NCBI RefSeq assembly: GCF_014323725.1
Contig: NZ_JABVED010000003.1
Span: 1 to 64,000, forward strand
DNA length: 64,000 nt
Source of the DNA: Actinokineospora xionganensis
GTDB taxonomy: Bacteria > Actinomycetota > Actinomycetes > Mycobacteriales > Pseudonocardiaceae
Direction: 5' to 3'
Below the pieces are notes generated by a model. That model was not told the origin of the DNA and made no database searches. It saw nothing but the letters and a program-made list of their open reading frames with translations. This document shows, in pieces, positions 31,034-52,033 of this stretch; positions within the stretch are counted from its first letter, which is position 1; every line of letters begins with the position of its first letter. Position numbers and translations under genes: made by a program.

Positions 31034-31633
31034 TCAGCCGAAGATCGCCTGGTAGGCGGCCAGCAGCGCGAATCCGGCGAACACCAGGCCTGCCACCCGC
31101 TGGATCAGGTGTGGCTTGATCCGTTCGGCGATCTTGCTGCCCACCAGCACCGCGATCCCCGCCACCGACACGAGCGCCACCCAGGCGCCGAGACCCACCC
31201 ATACCGGTTCGGCGTACCGCGCGCTCAACGCCGCCGTGGCGATCTGCGACGCGTCGCCCCATTCGGCGGCGAACAGGACGCCGAAGGAGGTCAGGGCGGC
31301 CCGCCAGAACGACACCGGGACGCTGGGGCCCGCCTCGTCCAGGCCGTCCTCGTCCTGGTTGGAGAACCCCTCGCGCAGCAGCAGTGCCGCGCCGATGCCG
31401 AACAGGGCGGCGACCACGGCGGCCACCACCCGATCCGGTAGGAGCGTCAGCACGCCACCGAATGCGGCGGCGATCACAACCTGCAGGGCGAAGGCCGCGC
31501 TGACGCCGAGGAAGACCGGCCACGCCCGGTAGCGGGTGGTCAGGATCAGGGTCGCGACCAGCGTCTTGTCGGGCAGTTCCACGACGAAGACCAGGCCGAA
31601 CGCGGCCGCGAAGGCGATCAATGCTGTACCCAC
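31034..31633 (-). CDS. TMEM165/GDT1 (UPF0016) family cation transporter
   Basis: A 199-residue six-helix membrane protein with the two family signatures ELPDKT (near residue 19) and EWGDAS (about 125), one in each inverted half. Members move Mn2+ or Ca2+ and in bacteria export manganese. The GTG start is 85 bases from the cydA start on the other strand. The DevR-box-like palindrome sits in that gap, closer to this gene. Confidence 0.9.
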   Translation of the reverse strand: MGTALIAFAAAFGLVFVVELPDKTLVATLILTTRYRAWPVFLGVSAAFALQVVIAAAFGGVLTLLPDRVVAAVVAALFGIGAALLLREGFSNQDEDGLDEAGPSVPVSFWRAALTSFGVLFAAEWGDASQIATAALSARYAEPVWVGLGAWVALVSVAGIAVLVGSKIAERIKPHLIQRVAGLVFAGFALLAAYQAIFG

Positions 31634-31644
31634 GACCTACCCTA

Positions 31645-31664
31645 ACCGGGACCTAGGTCCCGGT
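31645..31664. promoter_or_regulatory. Perfect 20-bp palindrome resembling a DevR/DosR box
   Basis: ACCGGGACCTAGGTCCCGGT is its own reverse complement and matches the GGGAC-core/GTCCC layout of DosR sites in mycobacteria. It lies about 64 bases upstream of the cydA GTG and 21 bases upstream of the divergent transporter gene. A DevR-like regulator is encoded 7 kb downstream. Confidence 0.6.
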
Positions 31665-31718
31665 CAGGCAGGACCCGGGGACATGGCGGCCGGGCCGTCG
31701 GTGCCCGAGGCTGAGCTG

Positions 31719-33188
31719 GTGGACGTACTTGATCTCGCGCGGTGGCAGTTCGGCATCACCACCGTCTACCACTTCCTCATGGTCCCGCTGACCATCGGCC
31801 TGTCCGTGCTCGTCGCGGGAATGCAAACCGCCTGGGTGCGCACCGGCGACGAGAAGTACCTGCGCATGACCAAGTTCTGGGGCAAGCTGCTGCTGATCAA
31901 CTTCGCCATGGGCGTGGTGACCGGCATCGTCCAGGAGTTCCAGTTCGGCATGTCCTGGAGCGAGTACTCCCGGTTCGTCGGCGACGTCTTCGGCGCCCCG
32001 CTGGCGATGGAGGGCCTGGTCGCGTTCTTCGTCGAGTCGACCTTCCTCGGCCTGTGGATCTTCGGTTGGGACCGGCTGCCCAAGCGGGTACACCTGGCCT
32101 GCGCGTGGGCGTTCAGCCTGGCGACGATCGCATCGGCGTACTTCATCCTGGCGGCGAACTCGTGGATGCAGCACCCGGTGGGTGTGGTCATGGACGAGGG
32201 ACGGCCGCGGCTGACGTCGATCTGGGCGGTGCTGGGCAACAACACCGCGCTCGCGGCCGTGCCTCACACGGTGGCGGGGTGTTTCGCGGTCGCGGGGGCG
32301 TTCCTGGTCGGCATCGCGGCCTGGCACCTGTGGCGCGACCGCGGTGACCAGCCGGTGTGGCGCGCGTCGATCCGCCTGGGGAGCTGGGTCGGCGTCGTCT
32401 CCTTCGCCGCGCTCGCGGTCACCGGGGACATGCAGGCCAAGCTGATGTTCGAGCAGCAGCCGATGAAGATGGCCGCCGCCGAGGCGCTGTGCCACACCGA
32501 GCAGCCTGCGAGCTTCTCCGTGTTCGCGATCGGCGACGTGAGCAGGCCGGACTGCGAGAGCGTAAAGTCGATCACCGTGCCCGCGCTGCTTTCCTTCCTG
32601 GCGCACAACGACTTCGACACGGAGGTCCGCGGGGTCAACGACCTCGTCGTCGAGTACCAGGCGAAGTACGGCACGAACTACCCCGTCGACGAGCGGCTCG
32701 GCGAGCTGTCCGGCAAGCCGATCGACTACGTGCCGGTGCTGCCGGTGACCTACTGGGGCTTCCGGCTGATGATCGGGTTCGGCGCGGTGTCCGCGTTCAT
32801 CGGCCTGGCCGTGCTGTGGCTGACCCGCAAGGGAAGGCTGCCGCGGACGAAGTGGTTCCCGCGGCTGGCGCTGGCAGGCATCGCGACCCCGTTCATCGGC
32901 AACAGCATGGGGTGGATCTTCACCGAGATGGGCCGCCAGCCGTTCGTCGTCGTGCCCAACCCGTCCGGTGTGGACGGTGTCTGGATGTTCACCGCGCGCG
33001 CCGTGTCCGGACTTACCGTCGGCGAGGTGCTGACGTCGCTGATCGCGCTGACGCTGGTCTACGCGGCGCTGGCGGCGGTCGAGGTGTTCCTGATCGCGCG
33101 CTACGTGCGCGCCGGGGTGGCTGGCGTGATGCCCGACAAGCCCGACAAGCCCGACGAGCCGAGCGACACGCTCGCGTTCGCGTACTGA
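31719..33188 (+). CDS. cydA: Cytochrome bd ubiquinol/menaquinol oxidase subunit I
   Basis: A 489-residue integral membrane subunit carrying hemes b558, b595 and d. It oxidises quinol and reduces O2 with high affinity, so it serves low-oxygen respiration. It opens VDVLDLARWQFGITTVYHF and contains GWIFTEMGRQPFVV near the C-terminus, both typical, with the short quinol loop common in actinobacteria. GTG at 31719 matches family starts; ATG at 31683 would add 12 residues. It is the first gene of cydA-cydB-cydDC. Confidence 0.96.
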   Translation: MDVLDLARWQFGITTVYHFLMVPLTIGLSVLVAGMQTAWVRTGDEKYLRMTKFWGKLLLINFAMGVVTGIVQEFQFGMSWSEYSRFVGDVFGAPLAMEGLVAFFVESTFLGLWIFGWDRLPKRVHLACAWAFSLATIASAYFILAANSWMQHPVGVVMDEGRPRLTSIWAVLGNNTALAAVPHTVAGCFAVAGAFLVGIAAWHLWRDRGDQPVWRASIRLGSWVGVVSFAALAVTGDMQAKLMFEQQPMKMAAAEALCHTEQPASFSVFAIGDVSRPDCESVKSITVPALLSFLAHNDFDTEVRGVNDLVVEYQAKYGTNYPVDERLGELSGKPIDYVPVLPVTYWGFRLMIGFGAVSAFIGLAVLWLTRKGRLPRTKWFPRLALAGIATPFIGNSMGWIFTEMGRQPFVVVPNPSGVDGVWMFTARAVSGLTVGEVLTSLIALTLVYAALAAVEVFLIARYVRAGVAGVMPDKPDKPDEPSDTLAFAY

Positions 33189-33197
33189 GGAGAGACG

Positions 33198-34205
33198 ATG
33201 GATCTCGCGGTCGTCTGGTTCTGCGTCATCGCCGTGCTGTGGCTGGGCTACCTGTTCCTGGAGGGCTTCGACTTCGGCGTCGGCATGCTGCTTCCGGTGC
33301 TGGCCAAGGACAACACCGAACGCCGAGTCATGATCAACACAATTGGGCCGGTCTGGGACGGCAACGAGGTGTGGGTGATCGTCGCGATCGGGGCGACCTT
33401 CGCCGCGTTCCCCGGGTGGTACGCGTCCCTGCTCAGCGCCGCGTTCCTGCCGCTGCTGGTGGTGCTGCTGGGGCTGATCGGGCGCGGGGTCGCGTTCGAG
33501 TACCGGGGCAAGGTCGACACCGACCGGTGGCGGCGCGGGTGGGACCGGATGATCATCACCGGTTCCTGGATCGCCGCCCTCGGCTTCGGGTTGATCATCG
33601 CTACCACGGTGTTCGGCCTGCCGCTGGACCAGAACGGGAACCGGGTCGGCTCGGTGCTCGCCGCCGTCCGGCCGGAGACAGTCCTCGGCGCGGTGGCGCT
33701 CGCCGGGTTCTCCCTGGTGCACGGCGCGGTGTTCCTCTCGCTCAAGACCGACGGCGAGATCCGGCTGCGGGCCAGGCGGCTGGCCACCCGATTCGGCCCG
33801 TTCGCGTTGCTGCCGCTGGGCGCACTGCTGGTGTGGGTGCAGGTCGACTCGGGGTCGGTGTGGACGTGGCTGGCGGTCGCCGCGGTGGTCGTGGCGGCGG
33901 CGAGCGCGTTCGAGCGGCTGGAGAAGGGGCGCGAGGGACAGGCGTTCGCGGCGCTCGGCGTGGTCATCGCGGCTTCGGTCGTGGGACTGTTCGGCGCTCT
34001 CTACCCGAACGTCCTTCCATCCACTTTGGATCCGGCCTTCTCGTTGACGGTCGCGCAGACCGCGTCGAGCCCGTACACCCTGACCGTGATGAGCTGGGTC
34101 GCGCTGTTCGGGACGCCCGCGGTGCTGGTCTACCAGGGGTGGACGTACTGGGTGTTCCGCAAGCGGGTGAGCGCCGCGCACATCCCGCCGGTGCACGTCC
34201 CGTGA
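33198..34205 (+). CDS. cydB: Cytochrome bd oxidase subunit II
   Basis: A 335-residue multi-pass protein forming the oxidase heterodimer with CydA. The motifs LFLEGFDFGVGMLLPVL and GPVWDGNEVWVIVA are diagnostic. It starts 9 bases after cydA and its stop overlaps the GTG of cydDC, so the three are one operon. Confidence 0.96.
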   Translation: MDLAVVWFCVIAVLWLGYLFLEGFDFGVGMLLPVLAKDNTERRVMINTIGPVWDGNEVWVIVAIGATFAAFPGWYASLLSAAFLPLLVVLLGLIGRGVAFEYRGKVDTDRWRRGWDRMIITGSWIAALGFGLIIATTVFGLPLDQNGNRVGSVLAAVRPETVLGAVALAGFSLVHGAVFLSLKTDGEIRLRARRLATRFGPFALLPLGALLVWVQVDSGSVWTWLAVAAVVVAAASAFERLEKGREGQAFAALGVVIAASVVGLFGALYPNVLPSTLDPAFSLTVAQTASSPYTLTVMSWVALFGTPAVLVYQGWTYWVFRKRVSAAHIPPVHVP

Positions 34206-37200
34206 AGCCGCTTCGCGAGCTGTCCGCCTCGGCCCGCCGGGCGCTGGCGGCCTGCGCCGTGCTCGCCGTGGCGTCCGGCGCGGCCGTCGTCTGGCAGGCG
34301 TGGGCACTCGCGTCCGCGATCACGGGCGGACCGCTCGCTCCCCTCGCCGTCGCGGTCGTGACGCGCGGCCTCCTCGGCTGGGTGACCCAGGTCGTGGCCG
34401 CCCGGGCGGCGGCGGGCGCCAAGGCGGAACTGCGCGCGGTGCTCCTCGACCGGGCGCTCGCCACCGGTCCCGAGTGGATCGCCGCGCGCGGCCCCGGCGA
34501 GCTGACCTCCTTGGCCACCAAGGGGTTGGACGCGCTCGACGACTACTTCGGCACCTACCTCCCGGCGCTCGTCACCGCCGCGGTGACTCCGATCGGCGTC
34601 GGCGCGGTGATCCTGTTCGTCGACTGGCCATCGGCGGTGGTGGTCGCGCTGACGGTGCCGTTGGTCCCGCTGTTCGCGATCCTCATCGGCCGCTACACCC
34701 AGGACCGGGTCGCGGGCGCGGCCGCCGCGACCGAGCGGCTGTCCGGTCACCTCCTGGAACTGGTCCGGGCGCTGCCGGTCCTCACCGCGTTCCGACGCGC
34801 CGCCGCCCAGGCCGAGGCGGTGCGCCGCACGTCGGAGGCCCACCGGCTCGGCACGCTCGGCGTGCTCAGGACCGCTTTCGTCTCCGCGCTCGCGCTGGAG
34901 TTGATCGCGACCCTGTCGGTCGCCCTGGTCGCGGTGGTCATCGGGCTGCGTCTGGTGACCGGCGACCTCACGCTCGCCGTGGGGCTGTTCGTGCTGATCG
35001 TCGTCCCCGAGTGCTACCTGCCGCTGCGCGCGGCGGGGGCGGCGCACCACGCCGCTGAGGACGGCGTGGAGGCCGTCCGCCGCGTCGCCGCCGTGCCGGA
35101 GCGGGCGGGCGTCGAGGGACCGGCGGTGACCGGCTTCGGCGAACTCCGGGTCGAGGACCTCCGGGTCGAGCGGCGGGAGGGGTTCGCGCCCGACGGGCTG
35201 TCGCTGGTGGTCAGGCCCGGCGAGATCGTCCGACTCGACTCGCCCAGCGGTAGCGGAAAGTCGACATTCTTCGCGGTGCTGCTCGGCTTTGTGTCCCCGA
35301 CCGCCGGAAACGTGCTGGTAGACGGGGTGCCGCTGACATCTGTCGATATGTCGACATGGCGGCAAATCGTCTCCTGGGTGCCGCAGCGACCGACTTTCGC
35401 GGAGCCATTCGTGGCCGACGAGGTAGGCCCACACCCGGCCGAACTGGCTCGCGACCTCGCTGTCGCACACCTGCTGGACCGGCGGGTCGACGACCTGTCG
35501 GCAGGCGAACGCCAGCGCGTCGCCCTGCTGCGCGCCCTGGCCCGGCCCGGCACCCGGCTGCTGATCCTGGACGAGCCGACCGCCCATCTGGACCCGGCCA
35601 CGGCCGCCCAGGTGATGTCGGTGATCGAACGCGCGGCCGAGAGCGGCGTCGCGGTGCTGCTCGCCACCCACCGCGCGGTGGAGGCAGGCGAGACCCGGGT
35701 GAGCGGCGCGGCCGTCACCGTCACGGACACCGCCGACCGCCCGGGTGCTCCACTGTGGACACTGCTGACCCGGCGCACAGTCGCGGGCGCGGCCCTGGGC
35801 GCGGCGGCCCTGATCTCCGGCGTGGCCCTGACGGCGCTGTCGGCGTGGCTGATCGCGAAGGCCGCGCAGCAACCGCCGATCCTGGTGCTGTCCGTGGCGA
35901 TCGTGGGTGTCCGCACGTTCGGCCTGGCCCGCGCCGGCCTGCGCTACGCGGAGCGTCTGGTCACCCACGACGCCGCGTTCCGGACGGCGACGGACCTGCG
36001 GGTGCGCCTGTGGACCGCCCTGGTCGCGCGCGGCCCCGCACGGCTGCCCAGGAACGACGAGGGGCAACGCCGACTCGTCGACGACGTGGACCAGGTCCGG
36101 GACCTGACCCCGCGTGTCCTCGTCCCACCGCTGATCGCGGTTGCCGTGGTGGCCGCCGCCGTCACCGTCCAAACAGCGATCCTGCCCGCCGCCGGACTGG
36201 CCCTCGCGGTCGCCGCGCTCGTCGCCCTGATCGGCGCACCGGCCCTGACCCTGCTCCTCGACCGCCGAGCCACGACGGCGATGGCCCGCGACCGCCGCGT
36301 GCTTGCGGCCGGAGTCCTCACCCTGCTGGACGGCGCCGCCGACCTCACGGCGTTCGGCCGAGACACCGCCCGACGAAACGCCATCGCGACCCTGGACACC
36401 AGCCTCACCAACCGCGCCCGCACCCAGGCCTTCGGCGCCGGGGCGGGTACGGCGCTCATCACCCTGGCTCTCGGCCTGGCCGGTTTCGCCTCCATCGCCC
36501 TGGCCATTCCCGTGCTGGACCCGGTCCTGATCCCCATCGTCGCCCTACTCCCATTGGCGCTCTCCGACGCGCTCGCCACCCTCCCCACCGCCGCGACCCA
36601 CCTGACCCCGCTGCGCTCAGCACACCGCCGGATCACCTCGCTGCTGGGAGATGACCGCACTCAACCGAGAGCGCCGCTCCGCGACCAGAGCCCTGTTCCC
36701 GATCTCGACGAGGTCCACCTCGTCGGCGCGGACATCCGGTGGAGTGGCGCGGATGTGCCCGCGCTGCGCGGGGTCGATCTGCGGTTGCCTGGCGGATCCC
36801 ATGTCGCGGTGGTGGGCCCGTCCGGGGCTGGGAAGTCGACACTGGTCGCCCTGCTGCTCGGATTCCTCGAACCAGAGCGTGGGCAAGCCAGCCTGCCGTC
36901 GTCGACGGCGTGGTGTCCGCAGGACGCGATGCTCGTCGCGACGAGTGTTCGGGAGAACCTTCGGCTAGCCAAGCCGCACGCCTCCGACGCCGAGTTGGTG
37001 GCCGCGCTCGACCGGGTCGGCCTGCCCGACCTGCTCGACGCCCAGGCCGCCACCCTCTCCGGTGGCGAGGCGCAGCGGGTCGCGCTCGTGCGCGCCTTGC
37101 TCGCCGACGCCGATCTTCTCCTGCTCGACGAACCCACCGCGCACCTCGACGCCGCGACCGCCGGGCGGGTGCTGGCCGGGCTGCGGGATGTCCGCGGCAC

Positions 37201-37291
37201 CGTCGTGCACGTCACGCACCGGCCGGAGGAAGCCGCGGCGGCTGACCTGGTTGTGGAGATCACCGACGGCGAACTGCTGGTGAGGGCCTAA
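34202..37291 (+). CDS. cydDC: CydDC fusion ABC exporter for bd oxidase assembly
   Basis: A 1029-residue fusion of CydD and CydC, each half having a six-helix membrane domain and a nucleotide-binding domain. The first half has Walker A SPSGSGKST, signature LSAGERQ and Walker B LLILDEP. The second half has GPSGAGKST, LSGGEAQ and LLLLDEP. Both ATP sites therefore look complete. CydDC exports thiols or affects heme handling needed to assemble cytochrome bd. In E. coli the halves are separate genes; fusions are common in actinobacteria. It overlaps the cydB stop. Confidence 0.94.
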   Translation: MKPLRELSASARRALAACAVLAVASGAAVVWQAWALASAITGGPLAPLAVAVVTRGLLGWVTQVVAARAAAGAKAELRAVLLDRALATGPEWIAARGPGELTSLATKGLDALDDYFGTYLPALVTAAVTPIGVGAVILFVDWPSAVVVALTVPLVPLFAILIGRYTQDRVAGAAAATERLSGHLLELVRALPVLTAFRRAAAQAEAVRRTSEAHRLGTLGVLRTAFVSALALELIATLSVALVAVVIGLRLVTGDLTLAVGLFVLIVVPECYLPLRAAGAAHHAAEDGVEAVRRVAAVPERAGVEGPAVTGFGELRVEDLRVERREGFAPDGLSLVVRPGEIVRLDSPSGSGKSTFFAVLLGFVSPTAGNVLVDGVPLTSVDMSTWRQIVSWVPQRPTFAEPFVADEVGPHPAELARDLAVAHLLDRRVDDLSAGERQRVALLRALARPGTRLLILDEPTAHLDPATAAQVMSVIERAAESGVAVLLATHRAVEAGETRVSGAAVTVTDTADRPGAPLWTLLTRRTVAGAALGAAALISGVALTALSAWLIAKAAQQPPILVLSVAIVGVRTFGLARAGLRYAERLVTHDAAFRTATDLRVRLWTALVARGPARLPRNDEGQRRLVDDVDQVRDLTPRVLVPPLIAVAVVAAAVTVQTAILPAAGLALAVAALVALIGAPALTLLLDRRATTAMARDRRVLAAGVLTLLDGAADLTAFGRDTARRNAIATLDTSLTNRARTQAFGAGAGTALITLALGLAGFASIALAIPVLDPVLIPIVALLPLALSDALATLPTAATHLTPLRSAHRRITSLLGDDRTQPRAPLRDQSPVPDLDEVHLVGADIRWSGADVPALRGVDLRLPGGSHVAVVGPSGAGKSTLVALLLGFLEPERGQASLPSSTAWCPQDAMLVATSVRENLRLAKPHASDAELVAALDRVGLPDLLDAQAATLSGGEAQRVALVRALLADADLLLLDEPTAHLDAATAGRVLAGLRDVRGTVVHVTHRPEEAAAADLVVEITDGELLVRA

Positions 37292-37305
37292 AGTTGAACT
37301 CGACC

Positions 37306-38427
37306 ATGGACCCAAGCCTCGCCGCGCGCACCCTCACCGCGGCCACCGAGATCGCCACCGCCGCCTTGTCCGGAGACGATCCCGAGGCCGTGCTCGACCT
37401 CGTCGTGCGCAGTGCCGCCGCGCTGGCCGAAGCCGATCTCTGCCTCGTGATGGCCCGCGGCGCCGACGGCTCGCTCACGGTCGAAGCCGCCCACGGCGCC
37501 CGGGAGCCGATCGGGCTGGTGCTCTCGCCGCGCTCCTCGGCGGCGCGGGTCGCGCGCGGGGGTGTGCCGATCGTCGCCGACGACGTCACCACCGATCCGC
37601 GGACCTCGCCGTACGTGCCGCGCGAACTGCAGGGCTACGGCCCGTTCGCGGCGGCGCCCTTCGGCACGCGCGAGCGCAGACTCGGTGCGCTCACGGTCTA
37701 CCGCCGCCGCGGCGGGCCATCGTTCACCCCGGCCACGGTGGACGTCCTGACCGCGTTCGCCGCGCAGGCCGGGCTCGTCCTGGTGCTGGCCGAGGGCGCC
37801 ACCGCCCGCCAGCGCGTCGACCTCTACGAGGAGCGCGAACGCATCGCCCGCGACCTGCACGACGTCATCGTGCAACGGCTCTACGCGGCAGGCATGCAGC
37901 TTGACCTGCTCGCCCGCAAACCGTCGCGCAAGCTCGCGAAACCCGACGCGACCCGCCTCGGCGACGCCGTCGACCAGCTCGACGCCGCCATCGAGGACGT
38001 CCGTGCCGTCGTGCGCACCCTGCGCCAACCCGACCCGGAACAACCCGCCGCGCGCCTGTCCGACTCCGCCCGCGCGGAGATCGAGACGGCTCGAGAGTTG
38101 CTCGGCTTCGCCCCGACCTTCCACCTCGTCGGCGAACTCGACGACCTAGCCCCAGCGGTGGCCGACAACGTCAGGGCCGCCCTGCGCGAAGCCCTGTCCA
38201 ATGTGGTCAGGCACGCGGGCGCCCTGCGCGTCGCCGTCCACCTGCGACGGGAGGACGGCATCCTGCGCCTGACCGTCGCCGACGACGGCTGCGGCATCCC
38301 GGAAGGTGTCAGCCGGCGCGGCCTGAACAACCTTCGCGAGCGCGCCGAACTTGTCGGCGGACGCTGCGAGGTGCGGTCGTCACCGCGGTCGGGCACGTCG
38401 GTGACCTGGGCGGTTCCGGTTCCTTGA
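37306..38427 (+). CDS. GAF-domain sensor histidine kinase (DevS-like HisKA_3 type)
   Basis: A 373-residue soluble kinase. A single GAF domain (about 20-165) is followed by a HisKA_3 dimerisation/phosphoacceptor segment with ERERIARDLHDVIVQRLYAAGMQL (His at about 185) and an HATPase domain with EALSNVVRHAG, DDGCGIPEG and GLNNLRERAELVGG. Mycobacterial DevS/DosT have two GAF domains and a heme; this one has one, so heme sensing is uncertain. ATG at 37306 is preferred over TTG 37294. It follows cydDC by 14 bases. Confidence 0.9.
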   Translation: MDPSLAARTLTAATEIATAALSGDDPEAVLDLVVRSAAALAEADLCLVMARGADGSLTVEAAHGAREPIGLVLSPRSSAARVARGGVPIVADDVTTDPRTSPYVPRELQGYGPFAAAPFGTRERRLGALTVYRRRGGPSFTPATVDVLTAFAAQAGLVLVLAEGATARQRVDLYEERERIARDLHDVIVQRLYAAGMQLDLLARKPSRKLAKPDATRLGDAVDQLDAAIEDVRAVVRTLRQPDPEQPAARLSDSARAEIETARELLGFAPTFHLVGELDDLAPAVADNVRAALREALSNVVRHAGALRVAVHLRREDGILRLTVADDGCGIPEGVSRRGLNNLRERAELVGGRCEVRSSPRSGTSVTWAVPVP

Positions 38428-38903: not shown

Positions 38904-39521
38904 CTAAGGCTTGCGCCGTGCGACCCAGGCCACAGCTTGGGTTCGGCGCTGCATGCCCAGTTTCGCGAGCACGCTCGTCACGTAGTTCTTCACCGTCTTC
39001 TCCGCCAGAAACAGCCGTTCGGCGATCTGCCGGTTCGACAGGCCCTCCCCGACCAGCGTCAACACCTCACGCTCGCGGTCGGTCAAACCTGCCAGGTCGT
39101 CGGGCCGACGCATGTGGTCGAGGACGTGGGCGGTGGTCACCGGGTCCAGCAGTGATCTGCCTGCGGCGACCTCGCGGATCGCGGTGACCAAGTCCTGGCC
39201 GCGCACCTGCTTGAGCAGGTATCCGGCCGCTCCCGCCATGATCGCCTCGACCAGGGCTCGCTCGTCGTCGAAGGCGGTCAGGACCAGGCAGTGGGGGGCG
39301 GGTTCCATGGCCCTCAGCGACCGGCACAGTTCGACCCCGTCGCCGTCGGGGAGGCGGACGTCGACGACCGCGACGTCCGGGGTGGTCGCGCCTGCCCGGA
39401 CCAGGGCCTCGGCGACTGAGCCCGCCTCGGCGACGACCTCGATGCCGTCCTCGCTGTTGATGAGGTCGCGCAGGCCACGGCGGACGACTTCGTGGTCGTC
39501 GACCAACAGCACCCGGATCAT
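38904..39521 (-). CDS. devR: DevR/DosR-like response regulator
   Basis: A 205-residue NarL-type regulator. The receiver domain (1-120) opens MIRVLLVDDHEVVRRGL and has the phosphoacceptor Asp54 in VAVVDVRLPDGDGVELCRSL. The LuxR helix-turn-helix (about 140-200) has LTDREREVLTLV, SNRQIAERLFLAEKTVKNYV and LAKLGMQRRTQA. Stretches such as DHEVVRRGL, EAGSVAEA, DVRLPDG and AEKTVKNYV match mycobacterial DosR as I recall it. It is convergent with the kinase/PLDc_N pair and probably partners that kinase. Confidence 0.85.
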   Translation of the reverse strand: MIRVLLVDDHEVVRRGLRDLINSEDGIEVVAEAGSVAEALVRAGATTPDVAVVDVRLPDGDGVELCRSLRAMEPAPHCLVLTAFDDERALVEAIMAGAAGYLLKQVRGQDLVTAIREVAAGRSLLDPVTTAHVLDHMRRPDDLAGLTDREREVLTLVGEGLSNRQIAERLFLAEKTVKNYVTSVLAKLGMQRRTQAVAWVARRKP

Positions 39522-50875: not shown

Positions 50876-52033
50876 ATGCCACATGTGGCCTTTATGGCCG
50901 TGCCCGCGCACGGCCACGTCAATCCCAGCCTTGCCCTGGTCGCCGAGATGGTCGACCGCGGCCACCGGGTCACCTTCGCCATCAACGACGAGTTCGCCGC
51001 ACAGGTCCGCGCGGCGGGCGCCGAAGTCGTGGCCTACAAGTCGACGTTCTCGACCGCGGTCGAGAAGCTCGCCAACGAGCCGGACGACCTGGCCTCCGCG
51101 CAGCGGATGTTCCACGACGAGATGGTCGCGGTCACCCCGCAGGTCAAAGCCGCGTACGCGGGTGACCGCCCGGACGTGGTCGTCTACGACATCGGCGCCT
51201 GGCACGCGCCCATCCTTGCCGCGAAATGGGACATCCCGGCGATCCAGCTCTCACCCACCTTCGTCGCCTACGACGGGATGGCGGAGGACTTCGGCATCGA
51301 CCTCGACGCCGAACCCACCCCGGAGATGGCGGCGCTGATCGCCGAGTTTGACGAGTTCGCCGCCGCCCAAGGCGTCGACCTCACCCGCGACGAGGTGATC
51401 TACCTGCCGAAACGGTGCGTGGTCACCATCGCGCGCACATGGCAGCTCAAGGGCGACAAGGTCGCCGACCACTACACCTTCGTCGGCCCGAGCGTCGACA
51501 CCCGGGTCGGCGAGTGGACCGCGCCGGATGAGCGGCCGGTGCTGCTGGTCAGCCTCGGCTCGGCGTACAACGACCGCCTGGACTTCTACCGGGAGTGCGT
51601 GCGCGCGTTCACCGGGCTGGACTGGCACGTGCTGCTGTCGGTGGGCAAGTCCATCGACCCGGCCGAGCTGGGCGAGGTCCCGGCGAATTTCGAGGTCGTC
51701 CAATGGGTCCCGCAGGTCAGCGTGCTGGCCAAGGCGAGCGCGTTCGTCACGCACGCGGGGATGGGTTCGACCATGGAGGGCCTGTACTTCGGGGTGCCCA
51801 TGGTCGCGGTCCCGCAGGCCGTCGACCAGTTCATGAACGGCGCCCGCCTCGCCGAACTCGGCCTCGGCGCGCACGTGCCCATGGAGGAGGCCACGGCCGA
51901 CCGGCTGCGCGAGGCGGTGCTGCACGTGACGTCCGACCCGGACATCGCGGCGCGGGTGAAGGCCGTCCGCGACGAGGTCCGGGCGGCTGGAGGGGCAGCC
52001 AAGGCAGCCGAGGTTATCGAGTCGGTGCTCTAG
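50876..52033 (+). CDS. Macrolide-type glycosyltransferase (GT1 family)
   Basis: A 385-residue GT-B glycosyltransferase of the MGT/OleD type, which inactivates macrolides or other natural products by adding sugar from UDP-glucose. The acceptor half opens HVAFMAVPAHGHVNPSLALV. The donor half has LLVSLGSAYN, VVQWVPQVSVLAKASAFVTHAGMGSTMEGLYFGVPMVAVP and the final DQFMNGARL. ATG at 50876 follows TGGAGTTCTCCC. The upstream ORF and hairpin suggest inducible expression. The natural substrate is unknown. Confidence 0.93.
   Translation: MPHVAFMAVPAHGHVNPSLALVAEMVDRGHRVTFAINDEFAAQVRAAGAEVVAYKSTFSTAVEKLANEPDDLASAQRMFHDEMVAVTPQVKAAYAGDRPDVVVYDIGAWHAPILAAKWDIPAIQLSPTFVAYDGMAEDFGIDLDAEPTPEMAALIAEFDEFAAAQGVDLTRDEVIYLPKRCVVTIARTWQLKGDKVADHYTFVGPSVDTRVGEWTAPDERPVLLVSLGSAYNDRLDFYRECVRAFTGLDWHVLLSVGKSIDPAELGEVPANFEVVQWVPQVSVLAKASAFVTHAGMGSTMEGLYFGVPMVAVPQAVDQFMNGARLAELGLGAHVPMEEATADRLREAVLHVTSDPDIAARVKAVRDEVRAAGGAAKAAEVIESVL

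Follow-up and report, generated by a model that had tools for sequence, protein, structure and literature searches.

In promoters controlled by DevR, the boxes are closely packed and cooperatively bound, with the proximal box overlapping the −35 element, as described in an excerpt of PMC3029386. K182 of Mycobacterium tuberculosis DevR is called a core DNA-binding residue in the excerpted text of PMC5999986. As for cytochrome bd, direct control of the cyd genes by OsdR is left unclear in the corresponding portion of PMC6302529, and in Mycobacterium smegmatis, according to an excerpt of PMC7739888, a devR mutant still induces cydA, which is controlled by Crp. Among the matches listed in the open-licence PubMed Central literature, none ties a DevR-type box to the cyd genes in the Pseudonocardiaceae.

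The window, that is, the whole stretch of 64,000 nucleotides of Actinokineospora xionganensis DNA analysed here, contains the perfect 20-bp palindrome ACCGGGACCTAGGTCCCGGT at 31645–31664, as given in the preliminary description. The latter also placed the palindrome upstream of the bd oxidase operon and noted a DevR-like regulator with Asp54 in the same block. Both placements hold: the GTG start codon of cydA at 31719 is followed by cydB, the cydDC fusion and a sensor kinase gene, and the regulator is encoded beyond them on the minus strand. We consider it fairly probable that the palindrome is the strong distal box of the cydABDC–kinase operon, bound by the cyd-linked DevR-like regulator, with the kinase of the operon as the main phosphodonor. 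The features of the locus are as follows.

31034–31633, minus strand: GDT1/TMEM165-type transporter, divergent from cydA (PF01169)
31639–31667, minus strand: putative GDT1 promoter, with the −35 element CTGACC (31667–31662), a 17-bp spacer inside the palindrome and the −10 element TAGGGT (31644–31639)
31648–31661, no strand assigned: distal DevR-type box, 14 bp, GGGACCTAGGTCCC, inside the palindrome, with an in-register counterpart in 92 of the 98 family genomes that have this type of cydA
31670–31683, plus strand: weak second box AGGACCCGGGGACA, matching the core at 6 of 10 bases and lying 22 bp beyond the first box in the window sequence
31707–31712, plus strand: putative cydA −10 element GAGGCT (compare A at −12 and T at −8 in relatives)
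31719–33188, plus strand: cydA, cytochrome bd subunit I, GTG start (PF01654)
33198–34205, plus strand: cydB, cytochrome bd subunit II (PF02322)
34202–37291, plus strand: cydDC fusion, thiol reductant ABC exporter, with the CydD and CydC models both above the cut-off
37294–38427, plus strand: DevS-related sensor kinase with one GAF, HisKA_3 and HATPase_c (Pfam)
38904–39521, minus strand: DevR-like response regulator with Asp54 and the recognition helix AEKTVKNYV, assigned by domain content and the best PDB match

The genes cydA and cydB are separated by 9 bases, cydB and cydDC overlap by 4 bases, and the kinase gene starts at a TTG codon 2 bases after cydDC or, alternatively, at ATG 37306. Given these gaps, cydA, cydB, cydDC and the kinase gene probably form one operon. 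A short ORF lies between the kinase gene and that of the regulator, and the gene adjoining the latter seems to resemble that of pantothenate kinase.

The bare palindrome is near the chance level. At 69.7% G+C and with independent bases, about 0.26 perfect 20-bp palindromes are expected per window, and two are present in total, the second being TTCTCGACCGCGGTCGAGAA at 51047–51066. The sole exact instance of the GGGAC-N4-GTCCC core in the window is that at 31648–31661. The genome scan proposed earlier, run with this core, yields 12 sites, no enrichment over the 9 sites found with the reversed control pattern. The suggested match to the DosR box stands for the core, in which all 10 bases agree, but not for the full 20-bp DosR consensus with its TWWA centre: only 14 of 20 positions agree, and the centre is CTAG. 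Such counts would suit a functionless chance palindrome in G+C-rich DNA, and thus the case for the site rests on its position and conservation. It is the conservation that lifts it above chance.

In the genus Actinokineospora, cydA is present in all 16 genomes examined. A search of these genomes for GGGACCWNSGTCCC yields scattered sites; the exact core is found about 72 bases before cydA at 16 of 17 loci, that is, in 15 of the 16 genomes, the exception being G013 with AGGACCTAGGTCCC instead. The centre is CTAC rather than CTAG at 13 of the 17 loci; hence the full outer symmetry is not maintained, while the half-sites are.

At the family level, 120 Pseudonocardiaceae genomes were considered. 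Of these genomes, 106 have cydA at E ≤ 1e-100. It is of the main type, 72–100% identical, in 98 genomes from 38 genera (in two pieces in G020 and G070), and of other types in the remaining eight. In 43 of the 120 genomes the exact core stands at a fixed distance from cydA; the reversed control pattern does so in none. The upstream regions were compared for each of the 55 main-type genomes lacking the exact pattern. A core with at least 9 of 10 bases is present anywhere in the interval −200 to −20 in 51 of them, versus 2.1% of mononucleotide-shuffled upstream regions. It is in register in 49, versus 0.4% of the shuffled ones, the register windows (−99 to −88, −78 to −66 and −53 to −47) having been set after the first inspection of the upstream cores. 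The usual distances from cydA are about −50, −72 or −94. In total, an in-register box with 9–10 of 10 core bases is found in 43 + 49 = 92 of the 98 main-type genomes and in 36 of 38 genera; these genomes are related, so that their counts are not counts of independent events, and one genus (g37, see below) makes one event. Six main-type upstream regions have no in-register box with at least 9 of 10 bases: L075 and L077 contain symmetric 8/10 boxes, L104 has three 8/10 boxes, L100 has an 8/10 box, L098 has one 9/10 core, but at −154, and L105 has a 10/10 core, but at −127. In G032 the exact core is at −127 only. In a second set, which overlaps in part with the family sample and covers Actinokineospora, Lentzea, Saccharothrix, Amycolatopsis, Prauserella, Saccharopolyspora, Kutzneria and other genera, a core with at least 9 of 10 bases is present at 47 of 51 Pseudonocardiaceae loci, the others being L147, L152, L165 and L174. 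With the box in register so widely, and so rarely in shuffled sequences, we regard a chance palindrome as hardly credible. Judged by its conservation, the palindrome is very likely a DevR-type operator of cydABDC.

Beyond the family, we compared 29 loci (Arthrobacter, Homoserinibacter and others). Three have a core with at least 9 of 10 bases: L185 and L186 with a clear DevS/DevR pair in the flank, and L180 with a weak partial regulator match only. The 26 boxless loci yield no kinase match, several flanks being cut by contig ends, and weak partial regulator matches are seen only in L183 and L198. Among 23 further outgroup upstream regions, five have a core with at least 9 of 10 bases (L233, L235, L236, L237 and L241), three of them at a shuffle p of 0.03–0.05. 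G019 has a cyd locus of another type (L125/L237): its cydA is preceded at 123 bases by the exact box and followed on the same strand by a DevR-like gene, with the adjacent DevS-like kinase gene on the opposite strand. No DevR-type pair is seen near the box within the stretches examined of L233, L235, L236 and L241. A core with at least 9 of 10 bases at cydA was found in none of five cases in family f2, of the same order, and in none of three in family f4, related at the class level. In a sample of the phylum (159 genomes, up to 12 candidates scored in each), only the genome of the window yielded the kinase at E ≤ 1e-70, and seven genomes had cydA at E ≤ 1e-150. Among the plasmid records, the 20 matches listed of 123 begin at query base 221, in the coding part of cydA. 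As some of the outgroup boxes have a DevSR pair nearby, the link between DevR and cyd recurs but is not universal. In G116, another genome with an other-type cyd locus (L275/L239), DevR-like and DevS-like genes are situated near cydA, and the palindrome GGGCCCTCAGGCCC at −85 of cydA fits the half-sites of the OsdR consensus.

For the promoter layout, 46 of the 51 Pseudonocardiaceae upstream regions were anchored on a box with at least 8 of 10 core bases between −77 and −69. They share the consensus C-GGGAC-CT(A/T)(G/C)-GTCCC-G, and a second element, GGGACC and then less strictly ACCTG, begins 22–24 bp after the box. The −10 element is visible as an A at −12 (33 of these regions) and a T at −8 (36 of them), counted from the start codon. 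The number of cores with at least 8 of 10 bases peaks at −94, −73 and −50. The cydA transcript is probably leaderless, with the start at or near GTG 31719, and with a start at 31719 the centres of the boxes at 31648–31661 and 31670–31683 would be at −64.5 and −42.5. By analogy, this layout appears to agree with that of the DevR promoters (PMC3029386, excerpt): the second element is present in the 46 relatives, while in the window the second box is weak and would lie at the presumptive −35 position.

The preliminary description suggested that the GDT1 gene, 21 bases away on the other strand, could share the site. About 21 bases separate the GDT1 start (31633) from the palindrome centre, whereas only 11 intervene between the start and the palindrome itself. 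The pair CTGACC and TAGGGT is a plausible leaderless GDT1 promoter, and since the palindrome fills its spacer, binding of the regulator should block GDT1 here. From the coincidence of the spacer with the palindrome (31634–31667), one would predict that the site acts in opposite directions on cydA and GDT1. The same coincidence could mean that the palindrome is the GDT1 operator, its nearness to cydA being incidental. However, the distance between the box and cydA is maintained in the 46 anchored loci, while GDT1, always divergent, is in the flank of 33, with its start 49 bases (L146), 60 bases (L170) or, in the other 31, 173 to 2981 bases from the box, and is not found in the flank of 13. Hence a GDT1 operator is highly improbable: the box stays with cydA where GDT1 is distant or not found, and its conserved role is with cydA, not GDT1. 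A shared site is possible in this genome, where the box is in the promoter spacer.

Another candidate was control of cydA by Rex or Crp, with the palindrome unrelated to DevR. In the interval 31560–31760, the best matches to the operators of Rex and Crp are 7 of 14 and 6 of 10 positions, and this candidate was rejected. It is scarcely plausible at this locus, although Rex regulates aerobic-metabolism genes in Streptomyces avermitilis (excerpt of PMC5355995) and Crp controls cydAB in M. smegmatis (excerpt of PMC7739888).

The cyd-linked regulator has the makeup of the DevR family, a receiver with Asp54, a GerE domain and the DevR recognition helix, and its best PDB match is M. tuberculosis DevR (E 1.3e-68). 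In an alignment of 38 regulator sequences, the residues D54, K175, K178 and N179 show at least 95% conservation. The genome contains two more DevR-type matches, at C5:99093–99710 and on contig C1 (C1:296640–297251). The latter looks like the classical DevR; it is 63% identical to the cyd-linked regulator and adjoins the gene of a kinase with two GAF domains. By sequence comparison, the cyd-linked regulator is a paralogue, not an orthologue, of the classical DevR, and given the separate C1 DevR, the “DevR pair” of the preliminary description should be read as a second, cyd-linked pair. The helix AEKTVKNYV is common to both regulators and identical to that of M. tuberculosis DevR. Thus either regulator could use the cydA site; specificity cannot separate them, and the assignment rests on the phylogenetic profile.

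Contig C1 carries a Dos/Osd-like island (292500–300500, L121; 389000–394500, L122; 365500–370500, L126; 377000–386000, L127), with GGGAC-N4-GTCCC sites at C1:297338, 299019, 368261, 381791 and 392874. The C1 boxes are near genes presumably encoding CBS proteins and Acg-like nitroreductases near a region presumably of the universal-stress type, and near an MFS transporter gene with one for a molybdopterin oxidoreductase after it, presumably NarK/NarG-like. Outside the island, GGGACTTTGGTCCC at C1:147898 (L001) directly precedes an ORF for another LuxR-type response regulator. With the same recognition helix in C1 DevR and the same core in the C1 boxes, the cydA box might be used by the classical C1 DevR; cyd would then belong to the hypoxia regulon, with the local pair acting separately or in addition. 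The C1 kinases, DevS-like with two GAF domains and the PPNHPPM stretch, are consistent with this.

The phylogenetic profile points to the cyd-linked pair. Of the 98 main-type genomes, 95 have the cyd-linked kinase, G051, G055 and G084 being those with no match. G055 has the box, and its contig ends about 5 kb from cydA, on the side expected for the kinase gene. An orthologue of the regulator (at least 71% identity) is likewise listed in 95 of the 98, the others being G044, G051 and G084; G044 has one weaker regulator match, and part of an 81% identical copy is visible at the edge of the stretch examined. In the 51-locus set, 47 loci have the kinase gene in the flank, between 5.4 and 7 kb downstream of the cydA start, and 38 have the regulator gene there, some flanks being cut by contig ends. 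Some 0.3 Mb separate the regulator from the kinase in G031, G069 (taking the distance round the circle) and G099, and the two are on different contigs in G040, G075, G077, G088, G104 and G120.

Genus g37 (G051 and G084) has the main-type cydA but no in-register box, no kinase and no regulator orthologue. In each of the two genomes, three further DevR-type regulators reach E ≤ 1e-45, and two of the three are encoded no more than about 4 kb from cydA. At the G051 locus (L123, 1847–5042), a DevS-like kinase gene divergent to cydA and two DevR-type regulator genes lie next to cydA, with no in-register box. Fifteen genomes with a single regulator match were re-tested; G075 and G100 were left out, and G044 and g37 were treated apart. 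In 13 of the 15 no match other than the cyd-linked regulator reaches E ≤ 1e-45 (150 of 213 candidates being scored in G069 and 150 of 207 in G120). An in-register box with at least 9 of 10 bases is kept by 12 of the 13, the exception being G083, with the kinase and the regulator but 8/10 boxes only. Thus the in-register box is mostly retained where no other DevR-type match is listed and is missing from g37 despite DevR-type regulators near cydA, which makes its use by the C1 DevR unlikely. Judged by this profile, the cyd-linked DevR-like pair is the likely user of the site.

In alignments with the C1 kinases, the cyd-linked kinase covers their second GAF, HisKA_3 and HATPase, and nothing in it corresponds to their first GAF. 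Its best PDB matches are the ATP domains of DosT and DevS, and HisKA_3 and HATPase_c are of the DevS type. No His or Cys is conserved in its GAF among 46 aligned sequences. The heme sensor of DevS and DosT is a first GAF with the heme-ligand His, and the cyd-linked kinase has no such domain. Hence hypoxia as the direct signal is not supported, and the hypoxic control put forward in the preliminary description is conjectural. Control of cyd by a DevR pair as such is supported by the in-register box, the 22-bp layout and the association of the box with the kinase and the regulator. The system may respond to the state of respiration or to the redox state, or the C1 kinases may feed into it by cross-talk.

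To summarize the proposed mechanism, the cyd-linked regulator, phosphorylated at Asp54, would bind the palindrome and spread cooperatively to the weaker box 22 bp downstream, centred at −42.5 in the −35 region. The bound regulator would then recruit RNA polymerase to the leaderless promoter at 31719. The main phosphodonor would be the GAF–HisKA_3 kinase, the last gene of the same operon; as the kinase is encoded in its own operon, activation would also raise its level, forming a positive feedback. The signal would be other than DevS-type binding of oxygen to heme and might reflect the redox or energy state of respiration. Here the bound regulator would also cover the GDT1 promoter spacer and may repress GDT1. 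A Dev box before cyd points to a switch devoted to respiration under low oxygen or stress. A broader reading, to which we give about an even chance, is that the Pseudonocardiaceae own a dedicated two-component system of the DevR family, split from the dormancy DevSR and devoid of the heme GAF, which reads the state of respiration and controls essentially its own cyd operon via tandem Dev boxes. The family-wide in-register operator and the operon-encoded kinase make direct DevR-type control of cytochrome bd testable in non-pathogenic actinomycetes. Further, the cyd-linked system offers a DevR-type sensor without a heme domain, and together with the C1 pair it provides a natural case of paralogous two-component systems with a common recognition helix.

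Compared with the described systems, Crp control of cydAB in M. smegmatis is similar in having activator sites at −58 to −73 and −86 to −101, but involves another protein and another sequence, TGTGA-N6-TCACA (excerpt of PMC7739888). HrrSA of Corynebacterium glutamicum is likewise a two-component system, with a regulator that binds upstream of cydABDC and activates cydAB, but is heme-responsive and global (PMC7337898, in the portion considered). The regulator of the window matches the structure of DevR better than that of ChrA (E 1.3e-68 versus 3.6e-35). OsdKR of Streptomyces coelicolor is a DevR-like two-component system with a similar palindrome, AGGGCCGATCGGCCCT, but in the excerpt of PMC5069765 the predicted sites of Table 1 include no cyd gene, and a GGGAC box at cydA is present in none of the three genomes of family f4. 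Another close system is DevRS/DosRST of M. tuberculosis. The likeness includes the GGGAC-N4-GTCCC core, a regulator with Asp54 and the same recognition helix, a related kinase, and multiple boxes in a promoter, the proximal one lying at −35 (excerpt of PMC3029386). The differences are that here the target is cydABDC, the kinase has no first GAF, the centre of the box is CTAG rather than TWWA, and the pair is a paralogous one that exists alongside a classical DevS/DevR island.
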